This document shows positions 6,990 to 59,639 of a stretch of DNA of 64,000 nt, piece by piece. Source of the DNA: Eunapius fragilis (Eukaryota > Porifera > Demospongiae > Spongillida > Spongillidae); assembly GCA_963681505.1 (NCBI GenBank), contig OY811971.1, positions 4,538,545-4,602,544 of the forward strand, written 5' to 3'. The stretch's first letter is position 1; each line of letters opens with the position of its first letter. The notes under the pieces were generated by a model. It saw only the letters and a list, made by a program, of their open reading frames with translations, was not told where the DNA came from and made no database searches. A program made the position numbers and the translations under genes.

Positions 6990-7770
6990 AATGGCCTCAC
7001 ATACTCAGCCCTGACCCCATGTATAACCAGCCCTACCCCCACAACCCAACCCTGACCCCAGGCACAACCAGCCCTGACACCATGCACAACCAGACCTGTC
7101 CCCATCCACAATCAGCCCTACCCTCAGAACCAATCCTGGGCCTATGCACAACCATGCAGCCCTGACACCATGCACGCACGACCCACAACCAGCTCTGGCC
7201 CACAACCATGCCTCACAACCAGCTCTGGTCCCACACCAACCCTGGGCCCATGTACAACTGTGCTACCCTGACCACGTGAATGCACAACCCCACAACCAGC
7301 CCTGGTTCCACAACCAGCCCTGGCTCCACAACCAGCTCTGGCTCCACAATCAGACCTGGCCCCACAACCATCTGGCTCCATGCCGGACCCACAACTGGCT
7401 CTGGCTCCACAACCAGCCCTGGCCCCACCCACAACCAGCTATGGCACCACAACCAGCACTGGCTCCACAGCTAGCTCTGGGTCTAGGTCCCACAACCAGC
7501 TCTGGCTCCACAACCAGCCCTGGCCCCATAACCAGCTCTGGCACCACAACCAGCTCTGGCTCCACAACCAGCTCTGGCACCACAACCAGCTCTGGCACCA
7601 CAACCAGCCCTGGCCCCATAGTGGGCCCTGGCTCTACAACCAGTACTGGTACCACAACCCGCTCTGGCTCCATGCCGGACCCACAACCAGCTCTGGCCCC
7701 ACAACCAGCTCTGGTCAGCACTAGCTCTGGCTCCTCAACCAGATGCGAGCTCTGGTGAGCACTGCTCTGG
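6990..7770. repeat. 18-bp minisatellite (CAACCAGCTCTGGCNCCA type)
   Basis: Units of about 18 bases, 'ccacaaccagctctggct' with variants, repeat about 35-40 times. Because 18 is divisible by three, several frames stay open on both strands; no splice or start context supports translation. Confidence 0.9.
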
Positions 7771-7999: not shown

Positions 8000-9299
8000 G
8001 TAAGGAATTAATGGACAAACGTATGTATTTATATGCCATTGTATTAACATGCATGCATGTTGCATGTGTAGGGGGGCGTGTCATTAAGTCAGGTCCAAGC
8101 GACCGGGAGGGTATAAAGTACAGTCAACTGTGAGCTTTGAACAATCGCATAGTACTTTGAATGCAATAAAGTGCATCCACAATATGAAGGAAAGCATTCT
8201 CTCGAGACAGCGTTGTGTCGTATTCCAGTCTACCATGCAAAAAAGTCGAATACTCGTACTTTTTGTGCTCGAAAAACTAGTAAGATTATAACAGAGCCAC
8301 TTTGAAATGTATCTTGACACATAGAACAATGTCAGCACGTAATGTAGGATGGTGTGGCATGTCTCGAAAAACTTCCAGACGGGAACACTTTGAATCAGAC
8401 TAACAGTAGTCTTCCGCACCAATTGCACATGCGTACAATAGAAACACCTCCCCGCGGAGTATAAAAAACTTTCTGCATCTGAATTAGGTACGTATGTGTA
8501 CAGAAAGGTCCTTTCTACATGCCTAGACTCTCTATGTTGCTGCATTTCATTCTGGTTGTGCAAAAAGTGGCTCCAAACAATGCACTAAGATAATGAGTTT
8601 AATGACGCCATTTTTCCGGCATGTTTAGCATTTGTTCCAATTATACCCTTTTTGACCCACTCGGAACAATAGTGCCGCCAAGGGCTGGAATTAATTACCT
8701 GCACTGATGTACAAGCTTCCATGTATAGCCAGTAAATTGATGCGTGTAAATAATTATGGATTTTACTTCAATAATGAAAAAAGCATGCTGAACAGCTTTA
8801 TTTAGTATAAACAACGGGCAGGGAGGTACGAAAGGGTATATGTTTAGACACAATTTATAAAGTAAATCATTTTGTGGTGGGTAAGTATCTACCCAGGACG
8901 GCTCTTGAGATGGCTCGGACCAGGGTGAAGTTCAGCCTGCCATATATTTCAGCATTTGTCCAAATTGCCCCAAAGTTACCATACATGTATTAGCTATGGA
9001 TGCATATGTCCATGAGGTTACTTGTACATATGTGGCTACATGTTACACTTGTTATGCAGAGAGTACTTCAACACACCAGAGGATCGATGCTTACACTTGT
9101 GGGTAGGTGAGAGGGTGGAGCGGTTATGGGGGTGTAACATGGATTAGAAGAAACCTTCTAAGTGTCGTAGTATGTTACGCTGGGATGCGGAGGCGGAATT
9201 CTCGCTATATCTATGAATATAATTGTGTGGCTTTGCAGTTTTACCGCTCGGAAAGCGTGACTAAACCAAAGACAGCTCTAGCCCTTACAGCACGCGAGG
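8000..9299. other. Region upstream of the 2A/death-domain gene
   Basis: No confident coding exon or element. A minus-strand frame at 8084-8563 and a plus-strand frame at 9107-9583 are open but show no domain. Promoter elements cannot be identified with confidence. Confidence 0.4.
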
Positions 9300-9363
9300 A
9301 TGGGTGTAGACTTGCAGACATACAGAGCTTACATTGGAACCTTTATCAGTTTAAAAAATGCAA
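9300..9363 (+). CDS. Exon 1, start and YRxxIGxF-type leader
   Basis: ATG at 9300 has A at -3 and G at +4. It encodes MGVDLQTYRAYIGTF and a few more residues. A donor (A/GTATGA) at 9363/9364 leaves phase 1. Joined to the acceptor at 9535 (TACAG), the codon completes in frame with the 2A exon. I recall similar Y-R-x-R-I-G-x-F segments just before 2A peptides in other invertebrate proteins; this cannot be checked here. If this exon is wrong, translation could start at the ATG at 9544. Confidence 0.5.
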
Positions 9364-12300
9364 GTATGAGCAGCTATGCAGAGGCGCCAACGACGCAGAG
9401 ATTGACGAAAAAGTGGAGAAGCAGGCATTGCACCGGTGCTCTGCAGGCAGATGGGAGTGCCCGGCCGAATATATCTCATGTGGCACGTGCGTCTGGAGCG
9501 GGCCCAATTATAAGGTCGTTATTACAAAAGTACAGGTTGGACCATGTTTTGGCAATGGAAGGCGGGGTATGTGGCGGAAATAGCATATTTGTTGTTGCTG
9601 AAATCCGGAGATGTGGAGGAAAACTCCGGACCTCTGACTCACGGTGAGGCCAAATAGTAAGCGGACCATGCATTTCAAAATAACTTATTTTTCGTTACTG
9701 CATGCTAGACCCGCTGGATTCACAGTGCAGTGTTGAACACATGAACACAGTAGCTGCAACATGTTTCTTTGACTGGAGGGTGGTGGGCAGACGTCTGGTG
9801 AGTGAGCAGGCCATTGTAGACATTGATAGGGAAGAGCAGGGTGAACAAAGGAAGAGAGACAAAATGTTCCAAAGGTGGCTAGAAATAGAAGGACCCAAGG
9901 CTACTTATAGAGTATTGATTGGTGTGTTTGAAGAAATAAATAACCATCAGGCAGCTGCGGCAGTGAAGGGATTGGTAACTAAGGCAGTACCACCAATGGC
10001 TGAAGGTAGGTGACATTATTGTAGCATGGCATAACAGAATGATTTAAATAAACAAACATATTGTAATGATGTAACAACATATTTATATCAGTGCATTTCA
10101 CATCAAGATGAAACATTAACATTTCTTGCTATACAAGGATATTCTCACGAGAATGATGTTGATATGAAGCAAGGTAACAACGTTTGACTGAAAGGAAAAT
10201 GAAATAGACCTATTTAGCTCCATTTTAGGATGCTGTACAACTCTGAGTGTGCTAGGTACATTTCATTCTTCCATTTCAGTCAAAGCTTACCATTGAGCTA
10301 ATGCAGCTGGGTTAGGTATACAAATGCTTGTTGAGAATAGTATCTTGAAAAAACTATTTTTGTCTAATGCTGGCACGTGCCACATTTTATTTGACTGATC
10401 ATCTCAACAGGCACTTATAGGGTCAGGTACCAATTTTTAAATTATTTTTACGGCATACTTTCCAACCTCATTGTTCTTTCATTGCTATAACACTATACGC
10501 TTGTTGTTGCTGAAATCCGGAGATGTGGAGGAAAACTCCGGACCTCTGACTCACGGTGAGGCCAAATAATAAGCAGACCATGCATTTCAAAATAACTTAT
10601 TTTTCGTTACTGCATGCTAGACCCGCTGGATTCACAGTGCAGTGTTGAACACATGAACACAGTAGCTGCAACATGTTTTTTCTTTGACTGGAGGGTGGTG
10701 GGCAGACGTCTGGTGAGTGAGCAGGCCATTGTAGACATTGATAGGGAAGAGCAGGGTGAACAAAGGAAGAGAGACAAAATGTTCCAAAGGTGGCTAGAAA
10801 TAGAAGGACCCAAGGCTACTTATAGAGTATTGATTGGTGTGTTTGAAGAAATAAATAACCATCAGGCAGCTGCGGCAGTGAAGGGATTGGTAACTAAGGC
10901 AGTACCACCAATGGCTGAAGGTAGGTGACATTATTGTAGCATGGCATGACAGAATGATTTAAATAAACAAACATATTGTAATGATGTAACAACATATTTA
11001 TATCAGTGCATTTTACATCAAGATAAAACATTAACATTTCTTGTATACAAGAATACTCTCACGAGAATGATGTTGGTATGAAGCAAGGTAACAACGTTTG
11101 ACTGAAAGGAAAATGAAATAGACCTATTTAGCTCCATTTTAGGATGCTGTACAACTCTGAGTGTGCTAGGTATATTTCATTCTTCCATTTCAGTCAAAGC
11201 TTACCATTGAGCTAATGCAGCTGGGTTAGGTATATAAATGCTTGTTGAGAATAGTATCTTGAAAAAACTATCTTTGTCTAATGCTGGCACGTGCCACATT
11301 TTATTTGACTGATCATCTCAACAGGCACTTAGGGTCAGGTAGCAATTTTTAAATTATTTTTACGGCATAATTTTTGTACTTTCCAACCTCATTGTTCTTT
11401 CATTGCTATAACACTATACGCTTGAAGCTGCTTATATCAGTACAAAAAACTGTGAAAGTTATATTCCAGCTGCTTGGTTAGTTAACGAGTTATTGTTGGG
11501 TATGGTGACCCTTTTATGTGATAAACAATACAAAAGGCGGATACCTTCCTGTGCGCATTTGTGCCTTTTAATGACACTAGTACATAGAGCTCAGAGGTAA
11601 GTAACTGGCTATGGGTCCTACTTGATTTTCATCTACTATCGTTGAGCGAACTACCAACGGAATGTGTCACGAGTGGGGGGGTTACATCACAAAATGGAAC
11701 CATTGAAAGGCTACAAACTCTTCTAAGCAGTGTCGGTTCGCCAGCAGTACCCAGGGCGAGTTACTATGACACTCCCTGTACACCAGTCATTGCGGTCAAA
11801 TAACTTTTGTTTTGTTCGACACCATTGTGAATAATTATTGGATCCTGCCCTTATGTGCGTTTAGCCCAAGGACAGGTCCAGTTTGATGCTGGGACTGAGT
11901 CTGAGCTAGTCTTATTCAACCCCATATTATGCACAAATAAAGCAAATGTGTAGTTAGCATATACATGTGGAGGGATTTCAAGCAGTATTTGAGATGCTTG
12001 CAATTATCTATCCTGCTACCCAGAATTTGTTGATTTTTGTCTTCTAAGCATACGGACAAAAGGTCACGAATGCTATGCTATGCTAACTCATTGCTTCCAA
12101 CCAGATAGGCATATACTTCTGTCACTGCCCCACTGTGTAGTATGTTTATTATGACACAATACATGTAGTCAATCTTTGGTTTGTAGGTTAGTGGACTAAA
12201 TTTAGAAACTACGTTTGCAACAACCATCTCCTTCCTCCACTAATCCATGTGTTCCTACCCCAGGACCAGTGGGAGAATTCCTGGCAACAGTCACTCATTC

Positions 12301-15300: not shown

Positions 15301-18300
15301 TCTGGTATGCATTCTGACGCTGCTATAGAAACCGCCTTGTCAAACGCTGTTAATTACATTCCAATGTGCCACGAAATTCTATCTATTTTCGCCAGACGTA
15401 CAAAACGTCCATTTATACGTCTGGGTACGAGACTAGTTGACGACTGAGAAGATTTGGCCTGGGTACGAGGCTAAACTCGAACTTTTTGTTCTCTTAAAGC
15501 AAACTGTTCGAAGACTGGAATAAAACATTAAAATGACCGTCTTTGCCTTCTGTTTCGATAGCAACAAAGAACACTATCCGTTTCTCCATACGCGAGTTGC
15601 GTTTTTTAATGATTTCACGACCCGGGTCAATTCCTATATAGGAACTACTATCGTAGTTCCTGATATATGCATGCTTGTGTTACACAAGTGTCTTACCTGT
15701 CAACTGATTCAATGTGAGTGGCGGCTCTTTTCTCGTACTCGGACTTACATTAGCGATCATTACATCAACTGCATGTACAAGCGCCTAAATCAGCATGCAT
15801 AATAAAATCGGTATCAGACAGTATCTATGTGTGCTGTGCCTTATACGAAGTACCAGATCAGTCTTTTTCAGGTTGTGGTGAATTAAATAGGCCTGTAGCT
15901 CTTGCTTATTTCACTTGGATTGGTCCTTCTACATATCACAGTCACTATAGCACATATTAGCCTTCTTCCTCCCAGAATCAGCTGCATTCTCAAAGGTTTT
16001 CCACGCTTGTAACTACCAGCAGATCATGCCACCAAAATTTTTATACATTGCAAGTATTTTCCTGGGAGTGGCAGCACATAAAGCTTCTGAAATTGCATCT
16101 CTTCCAATGTGTCATAGACACCTGCAGCCAATATTTTAACTTTGCCGAGTTCTTTGCTTTCTCCTGCTTTCCATCATTCATGGATTACACTCTTTACCTT
16201 TGAGGTTAGCTCTGCGTGCATGCATGTTTTTCTTTGGGTGGGCCCAACCAGCAAAAAGATTAGGCTCAAACGTTAAATTCATATATGGTGGTGTTTTAAC
16301 ATCATCTAAAAACATGCTTGCAGTTTGGTCGATAGCACCAGTGATAGAGAAGTCCATCCTTGCTAAACGTTGGTCAGCATGCCACATGGCAACAACTCTG
16401 AGAGCATCCCAAGGTTGTGTAGTGCCAGTACCCACATGATTTTTGAGTAGCTGTGGAAGCTTAAAGTGGTACAAGAATTTGGCACGCTGTGAGTAAATAG
16501 TTTGTATCATATCCAATGCCTTTCATCCTTGCTTTGGTTGATTCTCATGCTAACTTCTAGGCTACCCCTTTTGTACCTCTTTTAACTTTTTACTTGTACA
16601 CAACTACTGGTGCTACCATTGCTGAGGAGTGCAATGATTCCTGTAAAGTTGATACTGTCTGTTCCAATCTCATGTGATGATTGGCACGAAGGAATGGACA
16701 GACATTTGGATAGCATCTTCTGCTGTAAAATCAGACAGTTTTATGGTTATCACATACTGGGCTGCATAGAAATCTGAGATGCCTTCATCTTCAGGAGACA
16801 TACCAGACAACTGCAGATTGATAAGGGGCCTTGAAATCTAGTGTTAACAGCACTTTGTGTTCATTATAGGATTCTCCATCAATGCCACAGCAAGTTGCTA
16901 GGGTGCAGACATCTCCCTCCCTCTCCTTGTATCAAATAATGTGTTAGCTGGTGCGAAAAGTGAATCCTTTCCAATCTGGGCTTCATAGTGGTGGTACACC
17001 ACCCATCAGCAGAGGACACGTATGGCAATAGCAGCTTGGTTTGTTGCTATCGTCAAAAAAAAACTTTCTCGTCTGACCACAATTGTGATTTTGGCATTTA
17101 CAACACTTTTAGCAATAATAATCTGCATCGCACTTGTCACACACTGGCTTTCTGTGTTTATCATAGCACGCAAGTGGCATTCCAAATAAGTATGTATGTA
17201 ATGCATAATTATAATTAGTACCCAGTCCCTACACCTTATTTAAATTATGCAAGAAGCATTGCATCATGTTAGTCTAGGAACGAGAGAAAGTGTTATATAA
17301 TGATGGTCTGTGGACCGATGGTCCACAATACAGCTGCAAGTTATAACTTGATACTACCTGGTTCCTTTGTTTATGCAAAACAAAATCTCCTGGGCAAGCC
17401 ATATTCAAAAACAAAGGCCTAGGGTAAAAAAGTATACTATGAAATGCAATAAAAAATGGGAATGACACCACTATGCATCAGTATATCTCATTACTGGAAA
17501 TAGATAAACACTTAGAAATCTCTTGATAGCTCAGCGAGAGATTAACTTTTTGATTATGTAGTTTAAATAGCAAATGGAATCAATGAGACTAATTTTCTGG
17601 ATATTGAGTTTGACGAAAAAAGTCATCTAATTTCACGGACACGGTGTTAAAAACTTGAACTTGGACTTAATTAATTACCACATCAATTATTAGTTCTAGA
17701 GCAAGGTGGACCAGGCCTTCTGTTTGTGCAAAGTTATTCAAGTGTGACACATGTTTGTAATGAATAATAAAGCTGTTTTGGCTACCTAAAAATGACAGGC
17801 CCTTTATCACAAATGCAGAATTTGTTGGTGGGTGTAGGAGTCATAGTTGGTAGGAACCCTATTTGGTATGGAGGGTTGGATCACGTAACATGTTGGTGCT
17901 GGAGGATCTTGGTTGGAAGGTACCATGTTGTATCTCGGCCCCTCTATGTGCACTATAATCACTGTAAATGAATGGATACTTGCATACATAACTTAAGGAC
18001 ACTTTATAGATTGATTTGATGATAACACTGCCATGTAATTACCTGTTCATGGACTCAAACAAATAGTCTCATCCTGCTCTTTGAATGATGGTGTGGAATG
18101 ATGTTGCATGATAGATAGTAAAAATGGAATATTACCTGTGCTATGTACTATTTCAGACCAATGTCGTGTAGTCAAGGATAATTGTGGCTGTGGAAAATGT
18201 GACTTTACAAAACTCATAAATGATGGATGCTCTAACCCACGTCGACATCAATTCTTGTATCTTGACAAAAATACACTTGATCCACTTGATAAAAGCACAT

Positions 18301-21300
18301 TGATTTTAAAAGTTGATGAAGGTGCAAAGACCATCAACAAAGCCTATCGCCATGTGGTCTATGAATTTAAAAATTGGATGGAGAAAAATGTACCTGTTGA
18401 GGTTTACAGGACAATCCTCGTAAACATTCCTGGCACTAGAATGAATAATATACCTTTTCTAAAAGATCGATGGACAGAGATAGAGAAAGCTGATTTTGCT
18501 AAATGTTTTTGTACTACTCTCTGACTATCATACTTGGTTTAATTGCTCAGTATTAGAACAAGTACTAGAAGATGCTAAACATGAAACCAAAAATAATCCA
18601 ATTGAAGTTAAATCTAAACTTCAGTCTTACACAGAAGAAGTGCACAGCTATTGCAAACGAAACATCTTTGAATGTCCACCACAGTCAAGTATGTCACTGA
18701 CAAATGGAACGAAAACTTACTGCATAGTAAAAGTGAACAATCATCAGTTATTTGATGAGAAGAAGTTCACTGCAGATGAAATCCAACTGGTTGAAGCAAA
18801 AATAATCCAATTGTTTAAACTTAAACAGTATACACTGAAGTTGTGCACTGTTGGTATGGGATGCATGGAGCTTGTGTATTCAATGCCACTCTGTATATAT
18901 GCTGAACTGTTCCCTTTGAATGAATACCAGTGTAGAAACCTTACTACTGTTGGTGTGTCAGAGATCACAGTGAAGGACTACCACTATAGACTGGAACATG
19001 TAAGTGGTATCCATATTCATTGTACACTGAGTGGGATTTTATTATTTCACCTTGCCTCTTAAATAAGGTGCCTTATTATGTGTGTTATCCCATAACAGGT
19101 TTGTTGTGGTCAATTCATTGATTATATTAAGGGTATTTCCTTTAGGCCAATGGTTGTGGTGTAAAAATCATGAGTGTATCATTTACGCTGTGTAAATGCT
19201 CAACTAGCCGGTAGCTGCCTAAGTTATTTATGATGCCAACCTGATGTCAATGACAAATTGTTACAGTGTCCCAATGATAGGGAGCAGGCAGCAGCCAGTA
19301 GTTGAACTTGCTGACTTCCTTGCAGAATGGCTTTTGCTTATTGACTCAACCATACATTTTAAAAATCATTGCTACATTTGTTCTAAGATTTGTAGGTTTA
19401 CATTTGATAGGCTGCCACTGATAACCAATAGGACAGTGTGGGGGCACTATGTGTCAGTATGTGCATTTTATCCAACATGAAAATAAGTGCATACCTCCTC
19501 CAGAATGGTGATACAACATTGCAGCTGGTCTCAGAAAAAGCCACAACTGAACATCTTCATTCTACTTCATCTTCTCATGGGGTGAGTTATGACATTTATA
19601 ATTTAGTAATCTGCTATGAACGTAACATGTCAATATATTGTACAATCACTAATACCGGGCATTTCACCCTATAATCGTGGGTGTTGTGATAGTATACCCT
19701 CTTTGGAGCTCTGCTACGTGTGTTTCTTGACCGGCACTATAGCTATCGCATACAGCAGCTTGCTTCTTTTTAGCAAAAATGTGGGGTTTTGCTTTGCATG
19801 CTTGACGATCAATCTCCCAATACTTGCTATTGGCTCTGCATGAAGCTATTTTGTTTGGCTCTATTCTTTTGTTGACAAGAAGCATTTTGTGATAAACAAC
19901 TTCAGTAGACAAAAACCCAGCATAATGTATCTAGCAATTAATAACTGATTCTTATTTCATACAATGTTAAATTGCAATAAGCTTGTAACAATGTACAAAT
20001 GCAATAGTTCCATCTGACATAGTATGATACAATACAACTTCCACACAATAAGAGGCGGCATCACATACCGGTATCAGTTCTATATGAAGGTCAAAATGCA
20101 CCAATAGAAGCCAGAATCAAGTTCTTTGATTTCTCAAAAGTAATGGTCTCTTGGATATCCATGTCCTCTTGACGTTTGACTGTAATAATCTCTAATACCC
20201 TATACTATTGCCATTTGTGGAAGGAATTAGCAAGTAGAATGACAAAAGACCCAGGTATGATTTCAGTCACATTGTTTGATCTGGTTCATTCTTTACTGCC
20301 TCTATCTTCTCTGTCTGGAGATGAATTCCATTCTTATCAATTATTTACCCCAAATGCATCATTGACCTCTTCAAAAATAGACACTTTCAATACCTTTTTA
20401 GAGATGAATACGAGCTTTCCATAGATTGTACATTGTCGAGTGCCTTTTAATACACTTCGTCAATACTGCCTGATAATAAAATGTCATCAATGGTTTCCAG
20501 TATTATGCAATACATACAAATTAATGTGTCAGCATCAGAGCACAAAGAAGAATAGAGATGCCAGAGAGGTACTTTTGCACCAGGAGGATGGTAAAAAATG
20601 GCAGTTGTAGTCTGCAATAGAGTTGCCAGTGTAATTACTTCAACTTCAGTTCCCCACGTTCCAGATATTTCCATTTGAGTTGTGGTTAGGTAGTCAGAAA
20701 CATTCATGTTGTTTAGATGCCTTGATTCAAACTCCGATTGATCCAGATCAGTTTGTAATATACCACATGCAGACATACAAAAAAATCCATGATGATTTTG
20801 AGACAATGTAACCTCGTAGCATATTGCCTGAACAAGAAGTTTCCATCACCTTCAATTACATCAACTTTCAAAGGTGCTCTTAATGCTCCTTTCTTGCGAC
20901 ATTCAGAGTTTGAATTGGGAGTTGGCAGTAGGAACTGTTTGCACTTTTGTTTCCTCCAAGCAGGTGTTGTAGGACAAAACCAATTCCATGCAGGAGCGAG
21001 TTCACACACAAACTGAACATCCTCTTCGTTAGTTTTATCATCACTTTGTGTGCATTCACTTTCCTGTTCATCTGAAACCCTCCTGAAACTACTGTCATTC
21101 TGTGTTCCGCTTGCTAGCTTGAGTTTTTGCTTCATTATCATCCCTCTTGTTTGTTTCATTTTCCTGTCCTTCAAGAAATTTCTTATGTTTTTGATTCACC
21201 TTTTTTCCATCCACTTTTTTACCATTTGCATGCCAATCTGAATTTCTGTTTCATCAGTATCTTTTTTCTTTACTTCATTTTCCCGTCTATCATGAAATAT

Positions 21301-24300: not shown

Positions 24301-27300
24301 CTGGACATGTGTTCAGACATTCGGCACCATCACTTATCCCCAACCCCCTTGGACCAGCACACCTACATGTACATGTATGTTTAGCATCCCAAAAGACCCC
24401 AATATCTATACCCATCTTCTCTTGAGCATTGGACCATCATTCAGATGTATATGCAGGACGTCATATCTATAAATAGGGAGGTTGTTTATCATTGATAACC
24501 AGCAAATGCCACCAAACACATAGTCAGCAATGTGGCCCCACCATGAGCTCAGGACTTTGTCAGTTTTATCCCCCAGAACTATATTCCATGGGATGTATTT
24601 CTCATACTGAAGTACCTCTCCATCACACTCATGGACATGTTAATGACTCCTTGTATGCAATGTCTAAGGATGCACCCTCCTGATGTTGGTCCATCTAAGT
24701 GGACCAACATCAGTGTCAGATAATTTGAGGTTGACCAGCTCATTACAACACTGATAACCAGCAAATACCACCAAACACATAGCCAGCAATCTGGCTCCAT
24801 CATGACCTTCAGCATGTGGGCCATCACCAGTTTTTTGTTTTGGCCAACTTTTGTTTCAATCCTTCCAAAGTTCCAATGTAGGTTTAATGAATAAGTGCCA
24901 GTAATATCACTAGGTTAACCTAGCGTTCACGGCATTTTGCTTCACAATTTTCTTAGCGATTGTCATGTATTGTAAGGTACAGCAAAGGTTATACAAGCCG
25001 TGTAAATCTTAATGTCACAGCTATCTTTAGAAACAGTGCACACAGATTAGGTTCTAGCATTGGGCACTCTATCCATCTATCAGATCTATGCTACTAGATA
25101 TATGAACTTTCACACCTACCCTATAGTACTTCTGGCTTGATGAAACAAATATTCTGCTCCTGCTACCACCTTTTCAACGATTGATGTATGTAAGCCCCTC
25201 AGAAAAACCCTAACCTAGCGTCAGGAACCTATTCATGAATTAGTAGCCTATTGATGGAGGACTATCAGCATTGGGGAGGACTGTAAGCATTGGTGGAGGA
25301 CTGTAAGCATTGGGGGAGGACTGTAAGCATTGGGGGAGGACCCATCATGTGTTCATCCAAACCCTCTGTTTTGCTAACTGCATTCACTGTCTGGGGCCTC
25401 CCCCCCTTTTGGAGATGTGTCACCCTGGGTAAAGGGAGTTAAAGGTGCAATGGACTTTTAGGTATTTAAAGGTATTACAATAGTGAGTGTGTTGTGCCCT
25501 GTCTACTGCAATTCTCAATTACTGCATGGAGCCATGGAAAATCACCAAAGTATAGGTTCTAGGGCTCTGACCCCAGACCATGATGCTAACAGGGCTCATA
25601 CAAGCTGCCAGGCATAGGCGTAGGAGCCATGGGGCTAGGGGCTGGGGGTAGGGTGGGGGGGATATAAAGTGGTTGACTTTTTCATTCAGCATATCATACT
25701 GATCAAAATTCGATCCTTAGTGATCATACATGATTTTAAAATGAAGGAAACAAGGTATAAAAAACATTATCTTTGAGAAAGTTGGTGAAATATACGATTT
25801 GATGGCATTGGTGGTGTAAAAAGGATGGGATCAAGAGATCAATGATTATATGAAAATTTTTAACATTCTACACACTGTATATACTGTACTTTTGTATAGT
25901 ACATACATGTTACGTTGCTAAATATAGAATTCATATAATCATTGATCTCTAACACCACCATTGCCTTCAAATCCTATTTATTACCAACTTTCTCAACCAG
26001 CCATCACTAAGATCCTTACATGTATATGTACTTTCTTTTCTAAGATTGTGATTGTAGTGTGTCATGAGATCATCAAGTAGTTGTATACAAGAGGACATGC
26101 ACACATAAGGTCATTGGAAGGGACTGGTGGGTGGGTATACCTTGTATTCATCCATGTCCGCAAGGCTATAGCAGATGTGTTCAATAGCCACCACATGGAA
26201 CTAACCACTAGGCAGAGCAGTCTAGTTGTGTTTCAGTACAATGGAGGGTTTATCCCTTGATCTATTTGTATCTCAATAATACTACAGCCATTCCCCCTAG
26301 CTGAGTGGGAGGGCCCCCACTCTATAGTGGTGTTTACCCTTTGATATGTGTTAGTATATATACAGTAAGTGATGATCTGTGTATATATAGGATGTTGTGC
26401 ATGTCCATGTAGATGTACATGCTTATGGACCACAATGTGTGTGCTGACATGATAGAGTATTGATGGTGCTTCCTATGATGTGTACTTATACTTACAGGAT
26501 GCAGAGTCACCACTGATGGTGGCATCATCATGGGGACATTTAGAGATTGTTAAGCTGCTGCTCGATAAGGGTGCAGAGGTCAACCATCAGAACAAAGTGA
26601 GTTACAGTTGAATTGTAGTAATCATGTTCAACAGATTTCCGTTGCATGTACCAGATGGCTTGTGATATATGGTGGATCAGTGGGTTGTGATGATACATGT
26701 ATACATGTATGTACCATTGCATGTGGGCCTGGGGGGTCACCTCTATGGTGTCAGCGTAGTAGGGAAGGTGGCTGTGGGTGGGTGTGGAGGATGTGAGGGA
26801 CACTTGGGATGGTGTCGGGAACACTGCAGTTGTTACAAAAGCTACCCCCAATGGTTATTTAATAGGATGCTGTAGTTTTTCACCGCTGGCCATCAACCCC
26901 ACAGTTACCTATATTATAGTCTAAACTTGCATACATTGTAGAGATGTAAGCATATAATAAAGTAAAACTCAAAATGGCACACAAGTGTCAAAGATGATGT
27001 ATAATATATTGCAGTGACCATAAAGCACATGTTTATATTTGTAGCTGCAGTAGGATACAATGTACATAGCCACCATGTTTAACAAGTGTAATTGGTGTGT
27101 TATGAGTTGCATCGATCTTCTTCCACATCAGCCTGTCACCATATGGTACAAGAGGTAACTCAATTAAACTAAGTCCTGTGTCTACACCAGTTGTGTTTCA
27201 GTACAAAAGAGGGTTTACCCCTTGATATGTGTTAGTGTATTTACAGTAAGTGATGATCTGTGTGTATATAGGATGTTGTGCATGTCCATGTAGATGTACA

Positions 27301-30300
27301 TGCTTTTGGACCACAATGTGTGTGCTGACATGATAGAGTATTGATGGTGCTTCCTATGATGTACATTTATCTTTACAGGATGGAGAGTCACCACTGATGG
27401 TGGCGTTATCAAGGGGACATTTTAAAGTTGTTAAGCTGCTGCTGGATAAGGGTGCAGAGGTCAACCATCAGAACATGGTGAGTTACAGTTGAATTTTAGT
27501 AATCATGTTCAAAGTATTTCTTTAACTGATTAATAAGTTTGTCAGTTCATCCTCCAAACATACATGTATATTTAAGTCATGACTATGTAAAGTGAACTTG
27601 TCTCCCTTTTACAGACACTACCCCTTTTAGTAGGGCAGGATATCAGTGCATTTATATATGCATTACTTGCCTTTGTGTAAATAATGTCCATAAATGAAAA
27701 TCATATCAAATCAAATCATGAAGTAGTCCAACTGTGGCCATACCCTCTAGCTGGGTGGGAGGGCCCCCACTCTTTATTGCAGTTTACCCCTTGATACGTG
27801 TTAGTGTATATACAGTAAGTGATGATCTGTGTGTATATAGGATGTTGTGCATGTCCATGTAGATGTACATGCTTTGGACCACAATGTGTGTGCTGACATG
27901 ATAGAGTATTGATGGTGCTTCCTATGATGTGTACTTATATTTACAGTATGGAGAGTCACCACTGATGGTGGCGTTACCAGGGGGACATTTAGAGATTGTT
28001 AAGCTGCTGCTGGATAAGGGTGCAGAGGTCAACTTTCAGGACACGGTGAGTTACAGTTGAAGTATTTTGCTTGCATGTACAAGATGGTTTGTGATCTATG
28101 TACTAGATGTTGGAGTTGGTTAAATATGGTTTCCATGTACAGTGTTTAAGCCTCCTCCCAAACCAACCATCACTATGATCCTTACATGTACATGTACTTT
28201 CATTTGGTTTGTCATACATGTATATAGAGTGGTATATGTAGTGGTCCAGTTATGTTTCAGCACAAAAGAGGTGCAAACACATACAATGCACAACCATAAT
28301 GTGTATCTCAATGTACTACACTCCTTCCACCTTAATCTGTGTAGATCAGGGTACTGACATGTGGGTCACTTCAGCTCACGTGTACCTTGATGGTGGGCGT
28401 TCATTAAAGTGTAACTAGCTCCTCCCCAGAACCTTATCCAATGGCAGGTGCTCTCCTCCCCAGAACCTTATACAATGGCAGGTGCTCTCCTCCCCAGAAC
28501 CTTATACAATGGCAGGTGCTCTTCTCCCCAGAACCTTATCCGGTGGCAGGCGCTCTCCTCCCCAGAACCTTATCCAATGGCAGGTGCTCTCCTCCCCAGA
28601 ACCTTATCCAATGGCAGGTGCTGTCTTCCCCAGAACCTTATCCAATGGCAGGCGCTCTCCTCCCCAGAACCTTATCCAGTGGCAGGTGCTCTCTTCCCCA
28701 GAACCTTATACAATGGCAGGTGCTCTCCTCCCCAGAACCTTATACAATGGCAGGTGCTCTTCTCCCCAGAACCTTATCCGGTGGCAGGCGCTCTCCTCCC
28801 CAGAACCTTATCCAATGGCAGGTGCTCTCTTCCCCAGAACCTTATCCAATGGCAGGTGCTGTCTTCCCCAGAACCTTATCCAATGGCAGGCGCTCTCCTC
28901 CCCAGAACCTTATCCAATGGCAGACGCTCTCCTCCCCAGAACCTTATCCAGTGGCAGGTGCTCTCCTCCCCAGAACCTTATCCAATGGCAGGCGCTCTCC
29001 TCCCCAGAACCTTATCCAATGGCGGGTGCTCTCAGCTATGTCCCCTGACTCACTTGTTCAGACTGTCGGCAGTCTTTTCCGAAGCGTAAGGCGTTCTGTT
29101 CTCCATGGAGCTGAGATGCTGTCCCTTTCTTCCTCTCATGGTGTCTCACAGGAACGGGTCTTGTCTTGAAACATCCCTGGTACAGACATTGAATCTGTCC
29201 AAACACTTCTCCCGAAACGTTTCCCCCACAGAGGGCTGGGATACTGTCCCTCTCCCTCTCATGGTGGCTGGTACCTTCTTCTAGCTCTTCCAGATGTTTA
29301 CCCTCGTCACCAATGTGATATACACGCTTCACACGTGGCCAAGCCATGGACACACTCTAGCCAGTGGTCACCAGCATGGGACATAACGACTGCACACACA
29401 TGCAAACACATACAATATATACTATTAAGCAAAACCAGTTCATCTCACTTGCAGTGGCCACAAACCAGTTACAGCCCCTCTCCTGTGGTCAACTTGTACA
29501 CAATATGGCCACCTCATGCACAAATGTGTATCTGGGTGGGAGGGCCCCCACTCTTTTTTGCTGTTTACTCCTTGATACGTGTTAGTGTATATATACAGTA
29601 AGTGATGATCTGTGTGTATATAGGAGTTTGTACATGTCCATGTAGATGTCCATGCTTTTGGACCACAATGTGTGTGCTGACATGATAGAGTATTGATGGA
29701 GATTCCTATGATGTTCATTTATATATGCAGAATGGAGAGTCACCACTGATGATGGCGTCACGTAGAGGTCATTTTGAGATTGATAATTTGCTGCTGAATA
29801 AGGGTGCAGAGGTCAATCATCAGAACAAAGTGAGTTACAATTGAATTGTATGTTGATAGTATTTCGCTTGCATGTACCAGGTGGCTTGTGATCTATGTAC
29901 TGGATGTTGGCATTGGGGTCTTCATTCAACATACATAAGTTGCACATCATTGTATTATGTTTCATGATGACAAAGGGGTTACTTATACATGTATATATAA
30001 TTACCTACTAAACATTCTGGCCAGATTTTAAAAATCTTATGGCCTTATCTTCTGTATATGATATGATATTGTAACCGAATTACATATGGAAGTGGGTTAG
30101 AGACTAAGCGTGAGCAGAAGAGTCCATGAATGAAAAAGATATTCCTTATGTTTTGATATGCTGTATTTACTCTCACTCACTCTTGTTTCCACCCTTACTT
30201 TTGTCCTGAACCTTCTCCCCCCTCCCCATTACCCAACCAGCCTATGGGCGTGCTGCGCTATGGGAAGAAATTTAGTGTGGAATTCAAAGGAAAGCAGAGT

Positions 30301-33300
30301 CTCTAGATATGTGAGAATGTATGCAACAGAGTAATTGGATAGCAATCATTGGGGTCAATCCATTATATGTCAATAACTTTTAGCACTCACATCTTCAGAT
30401 CTTGATGCAATTTCTCATTATTTATTTGCCTTGATATAGATGTTAATTATGCCTATTATCAACTTAATAACTTTAATGATGTACGAAATAAATCTTCCTG
30501 AATAATTGAATTTTTACCAAAAAATTGCAACTTGGAGGCTCACATCTTTGCCACCACAGTGCAGATGCTGGTATATCAGGCATCAAATTGAAGCTCATTC
30601 TCAGCACAACTGAACGATGTAAATCATTTTTCAGGGTAATAAAAGAGTTAAATATGAAACTTGTTTAATGTTTTCTTTACAAAAGAGGTCACTTGCCATA
30701 TGATACTCAAGGTTTTTATTTCACCACATAGTAGTCATTGATGGTCCCAATAAATAAAAAGTTTCAGTTATCAGTAACCCCTGGACACCATGCGCAGCTA
30801 AAACCTGAAGTTGCCATTTTATTTTCAAGTTGGTTGATTTAGCTCTAATCTAAAGTAAGTTTACATAGCAGTATTATGTAACCGTCTTACCACGGCTATC
30901 CAAATTGTGGTTTATTTGTTACCGTGACTCGACATTTTTTTGTAACTGTAGTACGAATCGTTGAGCGTTAAATAGAGGCAAACTTGTGCGAACGCATTAA
31001 TTACAGTGTACAGCCATTAGCAGTTAGTGGAGAGTCGATACTGTTGCGATCCTTTCAAGCACCATCGGCGCCGTATATACTCGCACCTCCGAGTTGTACC
31101 AGCATCATTGATTGTAAAACACCCATCTCTCTCGCTACAAAGTGGAGTTGTAGCTTGCTGAATTGACAAAAAGCTATACGTGAGTGTTCTCCTAAGTCCA
31201 GGGTTCCTGATGTACCTTTATTAGAATGTGCAGGTCCAAGCAATGAACGTAATTACAGCAAGCATCGTGTAGATCTGTACTCTAGTTTTTTTTATATTGA
31301 AAACTTTATGACAACCATACCTTCCTTATATTGTCTACTGTCTCTACTATGTAATGGTCCAGATTTGGCTAACGGATCCAGGATTTGGCTAGGGGGGGGG
31401 GGGGGGGGGCGGTTTTACGGGAGGGGTGGCACATTGACAATGAATGTATGCGAAGCCAGGGGCGAATATACAAGATTTTTCCAAAAGGGGGAGTTTAGAC
31501 CCGCGACACGAAAAGCGGAGGGGGGGGGCTGTCCGCTTCAGGTCCGATACAAAAAGTGGGGGGGGGGGGGGGGGGGGGGGCGGGGCTGCTTGCCGTACGA
31601 TGATGCGATGATTTATATCTTCGTTTTGTGTGAGCGTGCGTGAGGGGTGGAGCGGGGGGGAGGGGGGGTGGCAATTGGAGCCAGAGGGCGGCATTTCATA
31701 TGAATGGGGGGGGGGGGGGCGCCCCCCCTCCCCCCAAGCCTATACTGGATCGGCCAGGACGGACATGGGCTTCCTCTCAATGATCCATATACGTATTGTA
31801 GGTGATAGACAATTCAGGAACTGCTCCAAAACAACAGTATTTTTGATCTGCTCCACCATGATAACATCTTTCAGCCACTTGTTCGCCAGATTGCCAAGCC
31901 GAGCCGCTAACTCCCGATGCGTCTCCTTGACACCCTTGGTACTCGTGCGGAACCGTTAACAGTAAGTCTCCTCGGTGATGTCGTATCGCCGTAAGATTGC
32001 TGCCTTCACCACGTCGTAATCTAGCGCTTGATCCGTAGGCAGCGCTGCGTAAGCTTGTTGGGTTTTCCCCGTGAGTTGGGGTGCTAGCTTGAAAATCCAT
32101 TTGGTTTTTGCTACTGCGTTAGCAGTCATCAGATGCACAAAGGTAGTTAAATAAGCCTATATGTATTTCTCACTGAGCTTCAACACTTGAAACTTGCTCT
32201 CGCTCCCAGACTTGGGCGGGTCAGATTTTGCTTCTGTGAGCTTTGACAAGTCTAATTGAACAGGAAGCTCCGAGTCACACTGTTGCCACTCCTCATCACG
32301 GCGTCTCCACTCCATCTCCTCGTGTTGCCGCCTTTCCTCTTCCCTCGTATGTGTCTTTCTTAGCTTCGCGCCTCTTCCATTCCTCTTCTCGCTCCTGCCT
32401 TTCTCTCTCCGGCTTCCTCGGACCCTCTTTTCCTCCTCTCGCTCCTGCCTTTCTCTCTCTCTGGCTTCCTCGGATCTCCTCTTTTCCTCCTCTCGCCCCT
32501 GCCTTTCTCTCTCTCTGGCTTCCTCGGACCTCCTCATTTCCTCCTCTCGCTCCTGCCTTTCTCTTTCCCTGGCTTCCTCGGACCTCCTCTTTTCCTCCTC
32601 TCGCCTCCTGTCTTTCCGTTTCGCGTCTCCTTGCGTCTTCCTCGTCTCTCTGTTTCCTATCTTCCAGCATCATCCGCAGCAGTAGCATCACGTTAGACAT
32701 AGTCACCTCCTCTCCCATTTCGTTAACGTTGTCTCTGCTGCTATTGTAGACAGTTCTCCGACGTATTGTCATCCTCTGATGGCGAAAATCCTAATCTATC
32801 TACCACAGACACTAAATCCCACCACTGCCACCAACTTCATGTAACGGGCCACCTAGTGTAACTACGCGATGACTGACACGCTCGAGAGGAATATGACACT
32901 AAGTTTCATTCAAAGGTCATTTCCCATCACTATGTATGCACATAAATAACATTTTTAAAAATGACCGACTTTGCCTTTTGGTTTGATAGCAACAAAGAGC
33001 TAAACTATTCGTTTCTTGGTACGCGAGTTATACGCTGGTCCTGCCCATATATGAGCAACAATGCATTCATGTGTGCATGCATGTCAGCTGCTAATCATAG
33101 TTCAAGGTTCACAATAAGGCTGCTCTTCAGGTGCTGCACCACTCCCCTCTTTTCTGAGTGTGTCCTCATACCTATAACATCTAAGTATTTGCTAAGATCT
33201 TCTCCTGTTTAGACACTTTGCCTCTGAGGTCTTCCAGTTCTAATCTATTCTCTTAGCTGCATGTGCATGTTGGTGCTGCCTGTACCTGCTGATGGTGGCA

Positions 33301-36300
33301 CCTGTGCCATCTCATCAGTGTTGTTAGTAAGAAGCCCTAGCTGGACATCATCATCAGAGATGCTGTCAGGTACATGTACTAGGCTCTTCCATGTCTATCT
33401 TCTATAAGGTGGAGCTGGGACATGTTTGGAAGGAGGGAAAATTTTAAAGTAGCAATGTAAATTGTATGTGCTATATAAAAGTGCTAAACATCAGACTTAA
33501 AATTTGTCAAATCATCGTTGATGCTTTTTTCCATCCCTTTTTACACCACATTTGCCTTTATGTCCATATACTCCACCAACTTTCTCTGAAAGAAATGTTT
33601 TTATATCTTGTTGACTATGCTTTTATTCAGAATGCACATCATCTTTCTTCCCCAAGTAAGGAGACGTACATGTAGTACAAGTGAAAGTGCAAAAGGATTC
33701 ATATAGATCGGCATTTTAGCACTGAAGAATGCCATATGACAACCATACCTTCATTACATTGTATACCATCTCTGCTATGTAATGGTATCCTCTTTCTGAG
33801 TACTGGATGTACCACATCTGAAATGAAATAATGTGATGAACAGTATATTGATTTGGTATTATTTTTTCTCATGCATTGTCTGGTGAAATCAGTTTGTCAT
33901 TAATGGTACATGTTGTTAGCGACTGTTCTAGACCCTGCAAACTAGAACTGATATATAAATTTTGCCCACAGAAGGGTGTCTGATTTTACTACGCCATGAA
34001 GACATTCAATGCACTAATATCTTCATATGAAATGTTTCATTACATCGACATGTGTATTAACATTATTAGTTGTGCACAACACCAAAAGGTTTTGTATGTA
34101 ACCTGAAAATATTCTATTCCTGACATCATTGTTCCTATTACCAGTATGGTGATACTGCTTTACATTGGGCTGCCAGTGAAGATAAACCTGATTGTGTAAG
34201 AGTACTCCTGTCACATCCTGATATTGATGTGAACATCAAGAACCATGAAGGACGTACAGCCATGATGGAGGCAAAGTACCGATCACTTGGTGTGTTCAAG
34301 AAGATACTGCTAACATGCAAGGCCTTTCCTGCTGATTCATACAATAAGGTGGTGTTATGTGGCAATTCTGGTGCTGGAAAGAGTACATTGACACAGGTGA
34401 GATCAGTACAGGTGTGTACATTTATATTCTAGAAATGGGCCTTGTATATATAGCATCCTAAACAAATCAAAATATTTATCTTATGCTGTCATGTTCTTAT
34501 TTTTTATGACACACCTATGGTGAAAATACATTTCGATGTCTTATTAGTGTGGACTCCGTCAGTACCGACATTGCATGATCCAATACCCCAGTCATGTACA
34601 TTACTATTAGGTATTCCAATGAGCAATATCTTTAGGTTGGAGCATTGAAATTGCTACTAATTTGGTAGTTACATGTATGTAGATAGGTTTGTTGCTATTG
34701 ATTTGTTCTGTTTATTATATTTTACTTCATCTCTTTTAATACGGGCAAAGTGCATGCACGGTTTACCGCCCTTTGTGTCCATGATTTAGCCACCCACCTC
34801 CCATGCATTGAATCACCTAAATCATTGGTACAAATAGAGCGGGAAACCATGCATGCACTTTGCTCAGAAATTAGGGTGTGTAACCCATTTTCAGGTCTTG
34901 TAGGTTACTAATTATTTGACCATTTGCGATTACCTGTTCATTAAACTATGCATTTAGAATGATTCAGGTTAAACAAGTTCAGAATTTGCTTTTAGTCCAA
35001 ATAATCGATTCCGTTTTTCTTAGTGGCAAATATTCTCCTTCACATTACCTTATGATGTACCCTCCCCATCTATCTGAAAATGGCTTACCAAAGAGATAAT
35101 TCAATTGCAACTGTAGAAAGAAATTTTGTTGATGTAATCAGCACTTAGTCTGTGGAGCTGTTGGGTCCTCAGTCTCACTCGTGCACACACACGGGACAAT
35201 TTAAATATGTTTGGTATAGTTCGCTTGACCTTCCCTCTCTCTGCAGTATAATAAATCAAACACGTTACATACTCTTTGGCATCAGCTAAGTCCAGATGTC
35301 ATCTTCGAGCCCAAGTACTTAGGTAGGGTAGTGTGGGGTGAGGAGTGGTTGGCTACCACACGTTAAACAACACACAAGGCCTTTAAGAAGGCGTTTCTAT
35401 ATTAAAGGATAAAAGCCACCCTTCTGGCTTATCTTAGGAGACAGTTAGTATAGTTTAACGGAACAGTGTCCAGCTAAATCACCCTTATGATACTTTATCA
35501 AACTTTCCAGGAGAAGCAAAAAAGAGTAATGCTCACATTGAAATGTATGCAGGCTAATTATAAATTCAGTGCCTAATAACTTTATGATGGATAGTCCAAT
35601 GTGTAAGGACCATTTGATAGAAGTTTTTTGGACTTCACAGAAAATGAAAAAAAAATGACAATGAAAACTTGAAAAACTACCCAGAAGGGTGATTTTGTTG
35701 GACGCTACAACTACAGTCTCTTGAAATAAAATCACATCATGTGACTATCACTCCCTACACTATCAGACACCCTTTTCCTGACGTTCACAGATGACATATT
35801 GACTATTGTGCATGTCTTGATTGCATTGTGGCTTTGTCATATGCTGGAGTGGAGATTTGCCATGAGGTTTCACAGGCTTCTGTGGTTCTGCTACTTGTCG
35901 CTTTTTCGAATTCTTGGATGTATGGTGTTTGAAAAATATGGCCATTGTTTGAATAATTTATAAGCTGATAAGCTAGAAGGAATAGCGATAATATAGACAT
36001 GAGGAACAGTGTTTTATCACAGCACTTAAAAAAAAAAACGGAGAAGCCTAGGTTAGATAATCGTTGACAAATTAATTGAATATCGATACTGATTTTGCTA
36101 GGTACTATAAACCTGACCAATATATTAGACTTTTTTTCATAGTCATAGTCGAATTTAGATTTTTCAAAAAGGCCTACACCTTAACAGGAATATTTCCATA
36201 ACAGAAAAAGTAAATGAAACTTACAGAACAAATTGATAGCGACATACCCTTCTACGTACATACCGAATTTGAAGCGATTTGAACGGTCCTACCTGAAGGT

Positions 36301-39300
36301 GATTGAATCAAGGGGGACCGGAGGTAGGTGAGATAGAAGATAGAGACATGAAAGAGGATGGTGCTCATATGGTGGTGGGAAGGAGCTCATATGGAGGTGG
36401 GGAGGGGTTCATATGGTGATGGGGAGAGGCTCATATGGTGGTGGGGAGGGGCTCATGTGGTGGTGGGAAGGAGCTCATATGGAGGTGGGGAGGGGCTCAT
36501 ATGGTGGTAGGGAGGGGCTCATATGGTGATGGGGAAAGGCTCATATGGTGGTGGGGAGGGGCTCATATGGAGGTGGGGAGGGGCTCATATGGTGGTGGGG
36601 AGGGGCTCATATGGTCGTGGGGAGGGACTCATATGGTCGTGGGGAGGGACTCATATGGTGGTGGGGAGGGACTCATATGGTGGTGGGGAGGGGCTCATAT
36701 GATGGTGGGGAGGAGCTCATATGGTGGTGGGGAGGGGCTCATGGTGGTGGGGAGGGGCTCATATGGTGGTGGGGAGGGGCTCATATGGTGGTGGGAAGGG
36801 GCTCATATGGTGGTGGGGAGGGGCTCATATGGTGGTGGGGAGGGGTCATATGGTGGTGGGGAGGGGCTCATATGGTGGTGGGGAGGGACTCACATGGTGG
36901 TGGGAAGGAGCTCATATGGAGGTGGGGAGGGGCTCATATGGTGGTGGGGAGGGGCTCATATGGTCGTGGGGAGGGACTCATATGGTCGTGGGGAGGGACT
37001 CATATGGTGGTGGGGAGGGGCTCATATGATGGTGGGGAGGAGCTCATATGGTGGTGGGAGGGGCTCATATGGTGGTGGGGGAGGGGCTCATATGATGGTG
37101 GGGAGGGGCTCATGACACCTAATTGTATTTTCACAGCAATGGTGTGGTATGTAGTCATTGTACTGTTAAAAATTGGAACTCTATATCATTTATGTTTAGG
37201 AAGATATTTCGATGTGATTTGCTGTATATATATAAATCCACAAGCCTCAGTTTGTTATATATAATTGAATATTCACTGTCTGCATCACTACTACTTCCGA
37301 ATGATTGAAGCTATCTACTTACCATTTCCAGCATGTCCTACCAAACTATTTTCTACAGCACAATCCATTAGCTCTTCTCCACACAGTACTTAGACAATAG
37401 CGGAAGTGATTCGCGCAATCTGATTGGTCAATTGCAGGTATCTAAACGCGGTAGAAACCTAGAGAAGGATTCTAAGTGCCAGTGGGGGGGATTCTAAGTG
37501 CCCAGGGCACTTAGAATCCCCCCACTGGCACTTAGAATCCCTCCCGTTATCGTTATCGCGTTGCGCGCGATAATTTATTGGTTGCTACGTACGCGTTGCT
37601 ATTGTCTAAATTGGTTAGACAATAGCAACGCTCTGGACGCTACAGCCCAGGGCCCTCGGTGATTCTAAATCACGTAGATCCCTCGGCTTCAGTGTCTAAC
37701 CTATATATAGAAATGGCCTTACTCTTAGTGACATCATAAATATCCTTAATTCTAAATTGTTTCAAAATGGTATATACATGGAAGAGTCCTGTAGCTATTA
37801 TCTAAATACTGAATTGGAAGCCGCTCATACTCGAAGGTGTGGCCATTTGGTACTTATGGGGTAATGGACTGGCTCCTCATTACTCCCATCCCAGGCTGTA
37901 GAATGTTATTAATGTTATCTTTTTTAAAGGCCATCATCAATCTTTCAAAACCAACAGCAACTAGGCTTGCAAAGGTGAGAACAGATGCTATGCTATATTT
38001 GAACAACAAATTGCATGCAAGGATTGTTTGTGGTCTCCAATGAAAGCAGATAGTAGATTTAAAAGTGTTACATGCAAGGCTGACATTCTTTTGTTTGCAT
38101 GCTACACTACTGGATCACATAAAATGAGATTAATGTATATAATTTATCCGTTCTGGGGGTAAATCTTTGCAAAGTGTGTCCACAGTTTCCTGCTTGATTC
38201 ACACCAATCATTTAGATACCTGCCTCCCATAACATTAAATGCCTAAATCATTGACACAAATTGAGCGGGAAACTGTTTAAGCACTTTGCACAGTTATATC
38301 GTCTAATGGATTAAAGCAAAAGTAAAAGGACAATAAGGACAGGACCCTTTTACATTCAAATAGATTTGAATGCTCCTACCTGAAGAATGTGGGGGAGGGG
38401 GGGGGGGGGGGGGGCATTGAATTTGTGCATTACACCAAATTATACTTCTGCATGTAAAAATGGTGTGATATGCAGTATTGAAAAACGGCTTTAATAGTTC
38501 AGAAGATATATAGATTTGATTTTGATGCTATAAATATAAACCCACAAGGATAAGATCTCATATAACAAATCTTATACAACACAAGTTGAGAAAACATTCA
38601 TCAATGAGATTGTTGATGGGATATACAAATTGAACTAAACTACTAGCTACTTGTATTGTAGCGTGAACACTATTGGTCAGACACCAGTACTGCATTTTCC
38701 TCCATCCTTTATGACACCTCTACTCACAACACCCTGTGTAACTCATTTTGATGTATGATAAAAATTCATTTTCTGCAGTTGAAGTTACATCCCCCACCAA
38801 TCTCTCATATGCCATAGAATTTTTTTGAGGGGTGAGGGGTTGGGCACTTATAGTTGTTAGGAACACTACCAATACAGTAAGGACTTGGAGAACAATGAGG
38901 TTAATCATATTTAATTAGACTGGGTATGAGATGAGCAACTCATTTTAGTTCTCAGAAACCATACTTTTTGTTGATTTGACAAGCGCAAAACAATTCGTTT
39001 TTAACTCTTCTTCCACAATCTACGCTGTTCATTTGTCGGGAGTCTTTGCTAGGCGCAGTTTGCATTTTCTTAATTATTTCATATCCCTATTTTTACACAC
39101 CAATCTCATACATGGGAGTCTCAGGGCAGTAGAACATGATTAATTTAAATTATTTATAAGAGCCTGTGCATTTACTAGCTGCTGGTATTATTTCAGCGTT
39201 TATTTGGACGGCAAGATGTGGTAGAACCTCTCACTGCTGGGATCATTCCACTTCAAGTTGACAGTCCCTACAGCAATATGGTTATCCATGACTTGGCAGG

Positions 39301-59159: not shown

Positions 59160-59292
59160 GCTAAATATAGGTCTATTTCAATTTTCCAGTAAAATTTCTG
59201 TCACTCTAGTTTCCGTGCTTTTTACACCACCATTGGTCAATCCTATATACCAACAACTCTCTCGTTAGAGAATGTTTTTATTTACTTGTTTC
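59160..59292. mobile_element. MITE-1 family, solitary right arm
   Basis: Matches the right arm 2569-2700 (ctaaatatagg..ctatttcaattttccag ... gagaatgtttttatttacttg) with a few changes; no left arm. Confidence 0.88.
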
Positions 59293-59639
59293 ATAGGTTT
59301 TTTTTCACCGTAGTCGATGAAATGTAGGAAGAGCATATAGAATTTGGACGATCCCCTTTATATTATCTCTTAATGCAATAACAAATAACTTTAATAATAA
59401 TAATTATAATTATATGAATTAGAAGTGTTTATTGTAAATTGTCTTCGCCCGCGCCCTCGTCACCTGCGGGGACGTCCTCCTCCCCGGCCTCCCCGCCATG
59501 CTGCATTCTGCCAGGGTGGCAGTGGCCATGCAGGCCAGGGAGGGAGCACAGACGGCGGTGGTACCGGCGGGAGCGCAGCTGGTGGTGGTGGTGGCGGGAT
59601 TATCCCTGCTCGTTGTTCCGCCAGGAACGCCGGCGGGGG

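Follow-up and report, generated by a model that had tools for sequence, protein, structure and literature searches.

The 2A-like Leader and Death-domain Exons of the Locus

The window analyzed here is a stretch of 64,000 nucleotides from the sponge Eunapius fragilis (contig C1, positions 4538545–4602544), and the genome searched for its relatives comprises 219 Mb on 24 contigs. The window carries a short open frame that ends in a 2A-like core and is followed, across a predicted intron, by a death-domain (DD) exon (Table 1). In 2A or StopGo peptides the nascent chain is released after NPG and translation restarts at Pro, as described in the accessible parts of two accounts (PMC12846837; PMC5972666). 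A preliminary description of the locus had proposed a 2A-like frame joined in phase to a DD exon, and this arrangement is borne out by the same-phase splice signals and the Pfam Death match. The donor at 9644 and the acceptor CTAG/AC before 9709 are both in phase 1 and give the joined reading ...NSGPLTHDPLDSQC..., and the best PDB relative of the DD is the death domain of RIPK1 (E 0.005). ATG9545 is the sole in-frame Met start ahead of the 2A-like motif. A search of Rfam over window positions 9000–11600 gave no match.

The ATG at 9300 had been taken for a separate upstream exon containing YRAYIGTF. Comparison with the relatives does not bear out that reading: ATG9300 is the start of the family leader, which forms one exon with the 2A in the window's own group. 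Splicing out 9364–9535 would restore the frame of the window copy; no such splice is seen in the relatives, and we rejected this intron because 8 of the 14 loci of the window's group, the window itself being one of the 14, read through the stretch as coding sequence with no break. A second 2A–DD copy, overlooked in the preliminary description, lies in a tandem duplication immediately downstream. Between the two DDs there is no coding substitution, though 12 of the 909 aligned bases of the duplication differ.

Table 1. Features of the 2A–DD locus (window positions).
Feature	Position	Strand	Detail
Family leader start (MGVDLQTYRAYIGTF...LLQKYRLDHVLA)	9300..9556	+	Shares the frame of the relatives until about 9556; shifted after that
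Open frame with 2A-like motif, reading MFWQWKAGYVAEIAYLLLLKSGDVEENSGPLTH	9545..9643	+	Ends at donor G/GTGAGG
2A-like core DVEENSGP	9610..9633	+	Ser in place of Pro17; sequence reading
Predicted intron between 2A exon and DD exon	9644..9708	+	65 nt, phase 1
DD exon	9709..10005	+	Pfam Death, E 1.4e-5, 25.5 bits (cut-off 22.6)
Tandem duplicate of 9589–10500	10501..11421	+	897 identities in 909 aligned bases
Second 2A-like core DVEENSGP	10522..10545	+	No in-frame upstream Met
Second DD exon	10621..10920	+	One extra codon; otherwise coding-identical to the first DD
Conserved domain X	18102..19059	+	Common to 2A–DD genes on C13 and C12; sequence comparison
Scattered ankyrin-repeat-like readings (about 26507, 27382, 27950, 29734, 34148)	26400..34300	+	Text motif only

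Elsewhere in the window there are long minisatellite-like blocks that are open in several frames (7078–7755, 28408–29166, 36420–37261, and 59410–60508) and an immunoglobulin-like reading, RYTCRATNEVAG, recognized by eye only at 58791–59189.

Genome-wide Distribution of the Motif

The pattern D[VI]ExNPGP has 29 matches in the 219-Mb genome and its reversed version, used as the control throughout, has none; all motif counts are lower bounds. With these figures a chance origin of the motif was rejected. The preliminary description had made its reading depend on conservation of the motif, and within this genome the motif is conserved in these 29 NPGP copies. Many of the copies are recent duplicates, so the 29 do not amount to 29 independent cases and fall into about six groups. 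When the pattern is relaxed to D-[V/I/M]-E-x-N-[P/S/T/A]-G-P there are at least 32 matches and no control match, namely the 29 NPGP sites, the two NSGP cores of the window and one DMEGNSGP, which we treated as noise. A wider pattern that admits other first residues and His at p16 gave 33 matches vs. 8 in the control: the 29 NPGP sites, NVEENPGP at C21:1266050, which lies at a DD locus, and three others. Another looser pattern had 3 control matches. The 2A/StopGo core (D/G/C/N)(V/I)ExNPGP is thus represented by 29 sites with D and by the C21 site with N at p12. One of the three other matches to the wider pattern, GVEPNPGP at C18:4727337–4727359, fits the expanded viral StopGo motif and may be due to chance.

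Using window positions 9300–10005 as a genome query returned 28 matches, including the window's own two. Twenty-two of them contain a DD exon and one a DD remnant of 60 bases, while the other five are confined to leader or 2A; the count is not fully blind to the motif, as the query contained the 2A. The 22 DD-bearing matches, a tally read from several listings, divide into 17 with an intact core, the two window copies with Ser, one that reads NPRP (L019, C12:6380892–6381334) and two (L020 and L028) that have no core within 600 bases before the DD. L019, at C12:6.38 Mb, is a near-identical inverted copy of L044. As far as these readings go, core loss does happen in the family and the window is among the losers.

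A motif search of the same kind located a silicatein-type active site, QCG[AS]SYAF, at nine sites on contigs C5 and C10 with no match in the reversed control; the motif is the serine version of the cathepsin site that is typical of silicateins. For one of the nine, a 42-residue piece, the best PDB match is silicatein alpha (4.3e-13), ahead of cathepsins. On these grounds the animal is probably a siliceous sponge. Another silicatein pattern was uninformative, with 11 matches vs. 5 in the control.

Splice Phase and Death Domains Across the Family

We compared the GT dinucleotides in the roughly 40 nt behind the core at 32 sites (the 29 NPGP sites, C21 and both window copies). The one that scores best as a donor has phase 1 at every site, with scores mostly 6–9 of 9 and only 4 of 9 at L038. 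Of the 29 NPGP sites, 25 are followed by a DD exon, 24 of them within the same fetched stretch and one, at L029, beyond a 6.4-kb insertion. An in-phase acceptor was found for 27 of the 28 DD-bearing sites, the exception being L044. No DD was found in about 5.5–6 kb downstream of the NPGP of L039, L040, and L054, and L051 has a DD remnant only. Chance placement of 2A next to DD is negligible, given that the 219 Mb yielded 380 DD candidates, of which 150 were scored. The proposal that a 2A leader is spliced onto DD proteins in this animal is supported at the level of a gene family, by 29 cores, a shared phase and the DDs behind 25 of the 29, and more strongly than the preliminary description could know.

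When the DDs were tested individually, Pfam Death was above cut-off for the window copies, L055, L041, L042 (as L061) and L030, below the curated cut-off for L057, L056, and L053, and without a match for L038. These last four DD calls rest on a home-built DD profile, which detects them with E values from 1.5e-23 to 1.4e-4. In the DD tree 3 of 27 forks are well supported and most are unresolved. The 6.4-kb insertion between the 2A exon and the DD exon (C1, about 21257464–21263937; L029, L012) carries long overlapping open frames, one of which was tested against Pfam and gave no match.

Two Forms of the Leader

Within the window's group leader and 2A form one exon, with 100–137 residues from Met to NPGP, and the leader is intact in 8 of the 14 loci (L029, L037, whose start has diverged, L046, L047, L049, L050, L052, and C21). 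Several groups share a leader start of the form MGVD..TYR.RIGTF. A match to MGVD..YR.RIG.F was found upstream of 16 of 31 sites (the 29, C21 and the first window copy), and an altered start was recognized by eye at L036 and L055. Two of the three genes at C1:12.7–12.9 Mb, L054 and L055 (altered), have a similar start. The family start was sought and not found at L053, in the C5 groups and at C4:6.8–7.2 Mb, apart from the diverged L037. At eight sites (L038–L042, L056, L057, and others if not extended) the first in-frame Met stands 22–39 residues before NPGP, and short leaders may therefore also exist.

The C2/C3 group has a leader in two exons. A leader exon of 249 nt (246 in one copy), beginning MGVDVETYRVRIGTF and reading YRVCIGTF in L036, is joined in phase 0 across an intron of 57–73 nt to an exon of 148/151 nt that contains a membrane-like stretch and the 2A. 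This split lies at another place than the intron proposed for the window in the preliminary description. Spliced models of the seven C2/C3 copies, two of which are identical, are open in six cases and have one TGA in L032, and the exon lengths differ only by threes. As a genome query the C2/C3 leader finds eight places, all of them 2A-linked; together with the shared leader start, this indicates that the genes of the ankyrin type and those of the NACHT type inherited their leader from a common source.

The leader bears on the question whether the 2A exons are relics of non-LTR retrotransposons or viruses that inserted by chance before DD exons. In favour of such an origin, 2A is reported from non-LTR retrotransposons as well as from some NLR genes (PMC11512398). 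Against it stand the common intron phase that links 25 of 29 sites with a DD exon, the constant linkage of the C2/C3 leader exon to 2A, the lack of any RT-like [YF]xDD in frames of at least 60 residues from L029 to L067 (a text pattern, 2.8–8.3 kb each) and the lack of a confirmed relative of the C2/C3 leader among IMG/VR viral contigs. On the frames, the leader and the IMG/VR search we rejected a retrotransposon origin, and the insertion of relics by chance is very improbable.

Constraint and Hydropathy Around the Core

Outside the search pattern Ser(-2), Gly(-1), and Leu(-5) are the same residue at 30 of 30 sites, each encoded by four different codons, many of the sites being duplicates. That E-N-P-G-P shows no non-synonymous change at all is a consequence of choosing the sites by this motif. 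Position p15 varies among E, I, S, L, M, and Q. Constraint is weaker over the ten codons that precede SG (pN/pS 0.65); pN/pS is 0.48–0.75 for the leader in three pairs and 0.17–0.83 for the DD in twelve pairs, with 0.19 for the window DD vs. C21.

With its L-rich stretch followed by SG the family matches the LLLLSG-like upstream class. The conservation of S, G and the L-rich part, which is as good as that of the core, would also be expected if the stretch were a conserved peptide signal, for instance the end of a signal anchor, with a coincidental likeness to 2A and no recoding, and the activity is here read from sequence. However, all residues known as required are present, the upstream class is functional in viral StopGo, and the free position p15 varies as it does in viruses, so that we regard a mere peptide signal as improbable.

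The 19-residue Kyte-Doolittle maximum reaches 2.83 in L033, 2.04 in L055, 1.70 in L041, and 2.17 in L057, the last counting residues before the first Met. It is 0.88 in L038, 1.14 in L039, 0.96 in L047, 1.24 in L050 and 0.96 in the window, and by these values the residues ahead of the 2A do not resemble a membrane segment in the tested ankyrin-type genes (L047 and L050), in L038 or in L039. From these values a dual location is predicted to be plausible for the NACHT types and less sure for the others.

Downstream Modules

In the loci read further, four kinds of module occur behind the DD as same-strand neighbours, which would form one transcript with the 2A and DD exons. NACHT follows in L055 (C1:12.88 Mb) and L060 (C3:3.95 Mb, about 6 kb away), with NACHT E values of 2.4e-21 and 2.5e-23, L060 being the only one of the seven C2/C3 copies that was read as far as NACHT. 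If each is a single transcript, L055 and the gene at C3:3.96 Mb would have the 2A in the N-terminal region of a DD–NACHT protein. One further frame behind the L055 NACHT showed no family above cut-off, and the label NLR as applied to these putative proteins refers to DD plus NACHT. CARD follows in L057 (E 2.6e-7), a kinase piece in L061 (E 1.9e-9), and domain X with ankyrin repeats in L058 and L059 (Ank E 1e-10). In the last two genes domain X, at L058:992–1875 and L059:7922–8299, lies between the DD and the ankyrin repeats; it has no Pfam match, and its second half has no PDB match. In the C12 gene L059 mobile-element-like open frames occupy about 3.4–7.6 kb between domain X and the ankyrin exons, and two of them gave no Pfam match.

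The preliminary description had envisaged a DD/ankyrin/ROCO protein. The ankyrin part stood, as ankyrin exons follow the two related 2A–DD genes L058 and L059, and the ankyrin-like readings of the window possibly belong to the 2A–DD gene or to the downstream ROCO gene. The ROCO part did not: the 12 closest paralogs of the Roc-COR exon at 39179–40765 (among the 82 scored of 149 candidates) are all on C1 at 4.06–5.56 Mb, and by eye no other 2A site has one of these 82 in the 60 kb downstream of it. By this comparison the ROCO exon appears to belong to a gene of its own, with a fusion private to the window as a possibility. C1 carries a large ROCO array, and in the window a death domain at 41070–41405 follows the Roc-COR exon.

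State of the Window Copy

Both cores of the window read DVEENSGP and so lack Pro17. Among 2,465 viral cores residues other than Pro hardly ever occur at p17 (PMC12846837), and both Pro17 and Gly18 have been called indispensable and fully conserved (PMC5972666). An indel after about 9556 puts the family start ATG9300 out of frame with the 2A. The unspliced translation from ATG9300 stops at a TGA at 9645–9647, and after the splice at 9644 the same frame meets a TGA soon after entering the DD exon. The frameshift may possibly be an assembly indel. Domain X of the window has an extra base near 18.5 kb relative to L058 and is frameshifted by it; L058 has a single-base difference of its own further on, which shows that the window is not alone in such damage.

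With Ser for Pro17, the leader frameshift, the 0.9-kb tandem duplication and the frameshift at about 18.5 kb, the window copy is, as its sequence reads, a damaged member of the 2A–DD family, in which skipping has almost certainly been lost. With Ser in place of the required Pro and a frame broken from the normal start, neither a skip nor a normal leader would be expected there. The DD nevertheless looks constrained, and together with the lack of coding change between the duplicates this suggests that the decay is recent or incomplete.

The same two observations would fit a working gene that has lost skipping and keeps its leader as a pure targeting or anchoring peptide, read either from ATG9545, which is in frame, or through a private splice of ATG9300. 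Such a state has a parallel in SpNLR2A6 of the sea urchin, where, in the part of PMC4981915 available, a Pro-to-Ala change kills recoding and spares targeting, and a two-exon leader does occur in the C2/C3 group. On the other side, the family start is out of frame with the 2A, the short leader from ATG9545 is weakly hydrophobic over 19 residues although its last ten residues are hydrophobic, domain X is frameshifted, and the private intron would remove sequence that is coding in the relatives. Because the damage reaches the start codon, the frame and the 2A core alike, leader function without skipping, as the preliminary description had suggested, is not the best reading of this copy; we give the working gene a small but appreciable probability.

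A Model for the Family and Its Known Counterparts

In our view the window probably holds a damaged member of a sponge family of 2A-leader/DD genes, whose intact members would skip at NPG/P and whose leader may tether the protein to membranes. The family layout would be an L-rich leader end with SGD[VI]ExNPG/P, a phase-1 intron, the DD, and then NACHT, kinase, CARD or domain X with ankyrin repeats. In intact members the ribosome would skip the Gly-Pro bond at NPG/P and release the leader, leaving a cytosolic protein that starts with Pro and has few residues before the DD. When skipping fails, the leader would stay on, and a long hydrophobic stretch could tether or route the protein to membranes. 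Leaders capable of this would be those of the C2/C3 and C1 NACHT genes and perhaps of the C5 CARD genes. In the ankyrin type the released peptide of about 100 residues, or the mere removal of the leader, may be the important outcome.

The closest counterpart is SpNLR2A of Strongylocentrotus purpuratus, for which the available part of the report describes an N-terminal D(V/I)ExNPGP 2A before DD and NACHT, as predicted for the sponge NACHT genes, and a hydrophobic tract before the core, which in the sponge is strong in L033 and L055 and weak in the ankyrin-type genes and the window (PMC4981915). The sea-urchin leader recodes at about 80%, and the Pro-to-Ala mutant of SpNLR2A6 is inactive, its fusion product going mainly to the Golgi (Roulston, 2016; PMC4981915). 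As far as that text goes, SpNLR2A leaders have 26 residues (14 NCBI entries) vs. 100–137 in several sponge groups, and activity and location were assayed, whereas the sponge family is known here from its sequence alone (PMC4981915). Unlike SpNLR2A, sponge 2A–DD also stands before kinase, CARD, and ankyrin modules.

RNA-virus StopGo of the LLLLSG-like class shares both the core octapeptide and the upstream hexapeptide class with the sponge, and mutating LLLLSG-like motifs nearly abolished activity, according to the accessible part of that study (Li, 2026; PMC12846837). GDVEENPGP and GDIEENPGP are cores of viral 2As listed in the part of PMC8623073 available. The sponge 2A belongs to a host gene with a spliced leader, in contrast to the viral polyprotein (PMC12846837).

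The DEATH-NACHT-LRR receptors (NLRD) of the sponge Dysidea avara have a DD and then NACHT, as in the NACHT types found here; they carry LRRs, and their description nowhere uses the terms "2A-like," "ribosome" or "signal peptide" (PMC12909245). Among the literature matches listed, with subscription literature largely outside the scope, 2A in host immune genes is reported for sea urchin only, and no relevant paper on 2A in sponges is listed, though Odon (2013) may mention it.

Significance

Roughly thirty host copies occur in one sponge, mostly before death domains and in four domain architectures, and damaged NSGP and NPRP copies stand beside intact ones as natural mutants. More tentatively, as something we hold possible and short of probable, the two-exon cassette of StopGo leader and DD might be a reusable N-terminal module of animal innate immunity, one that sponges and sea urchins have in common in principle and that shuffling has placed in front of NACHT, kinase, CARD, and ankyrin receptors; the split of each receptor between membrane and cytosol would then be set by the state of the translation machinery. 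StopGo has been described as rare in cellular genes in the available part of PMC12846837. If the model is true, immune-type genes of animals other than echinoderms would also make regular use of StopGo.
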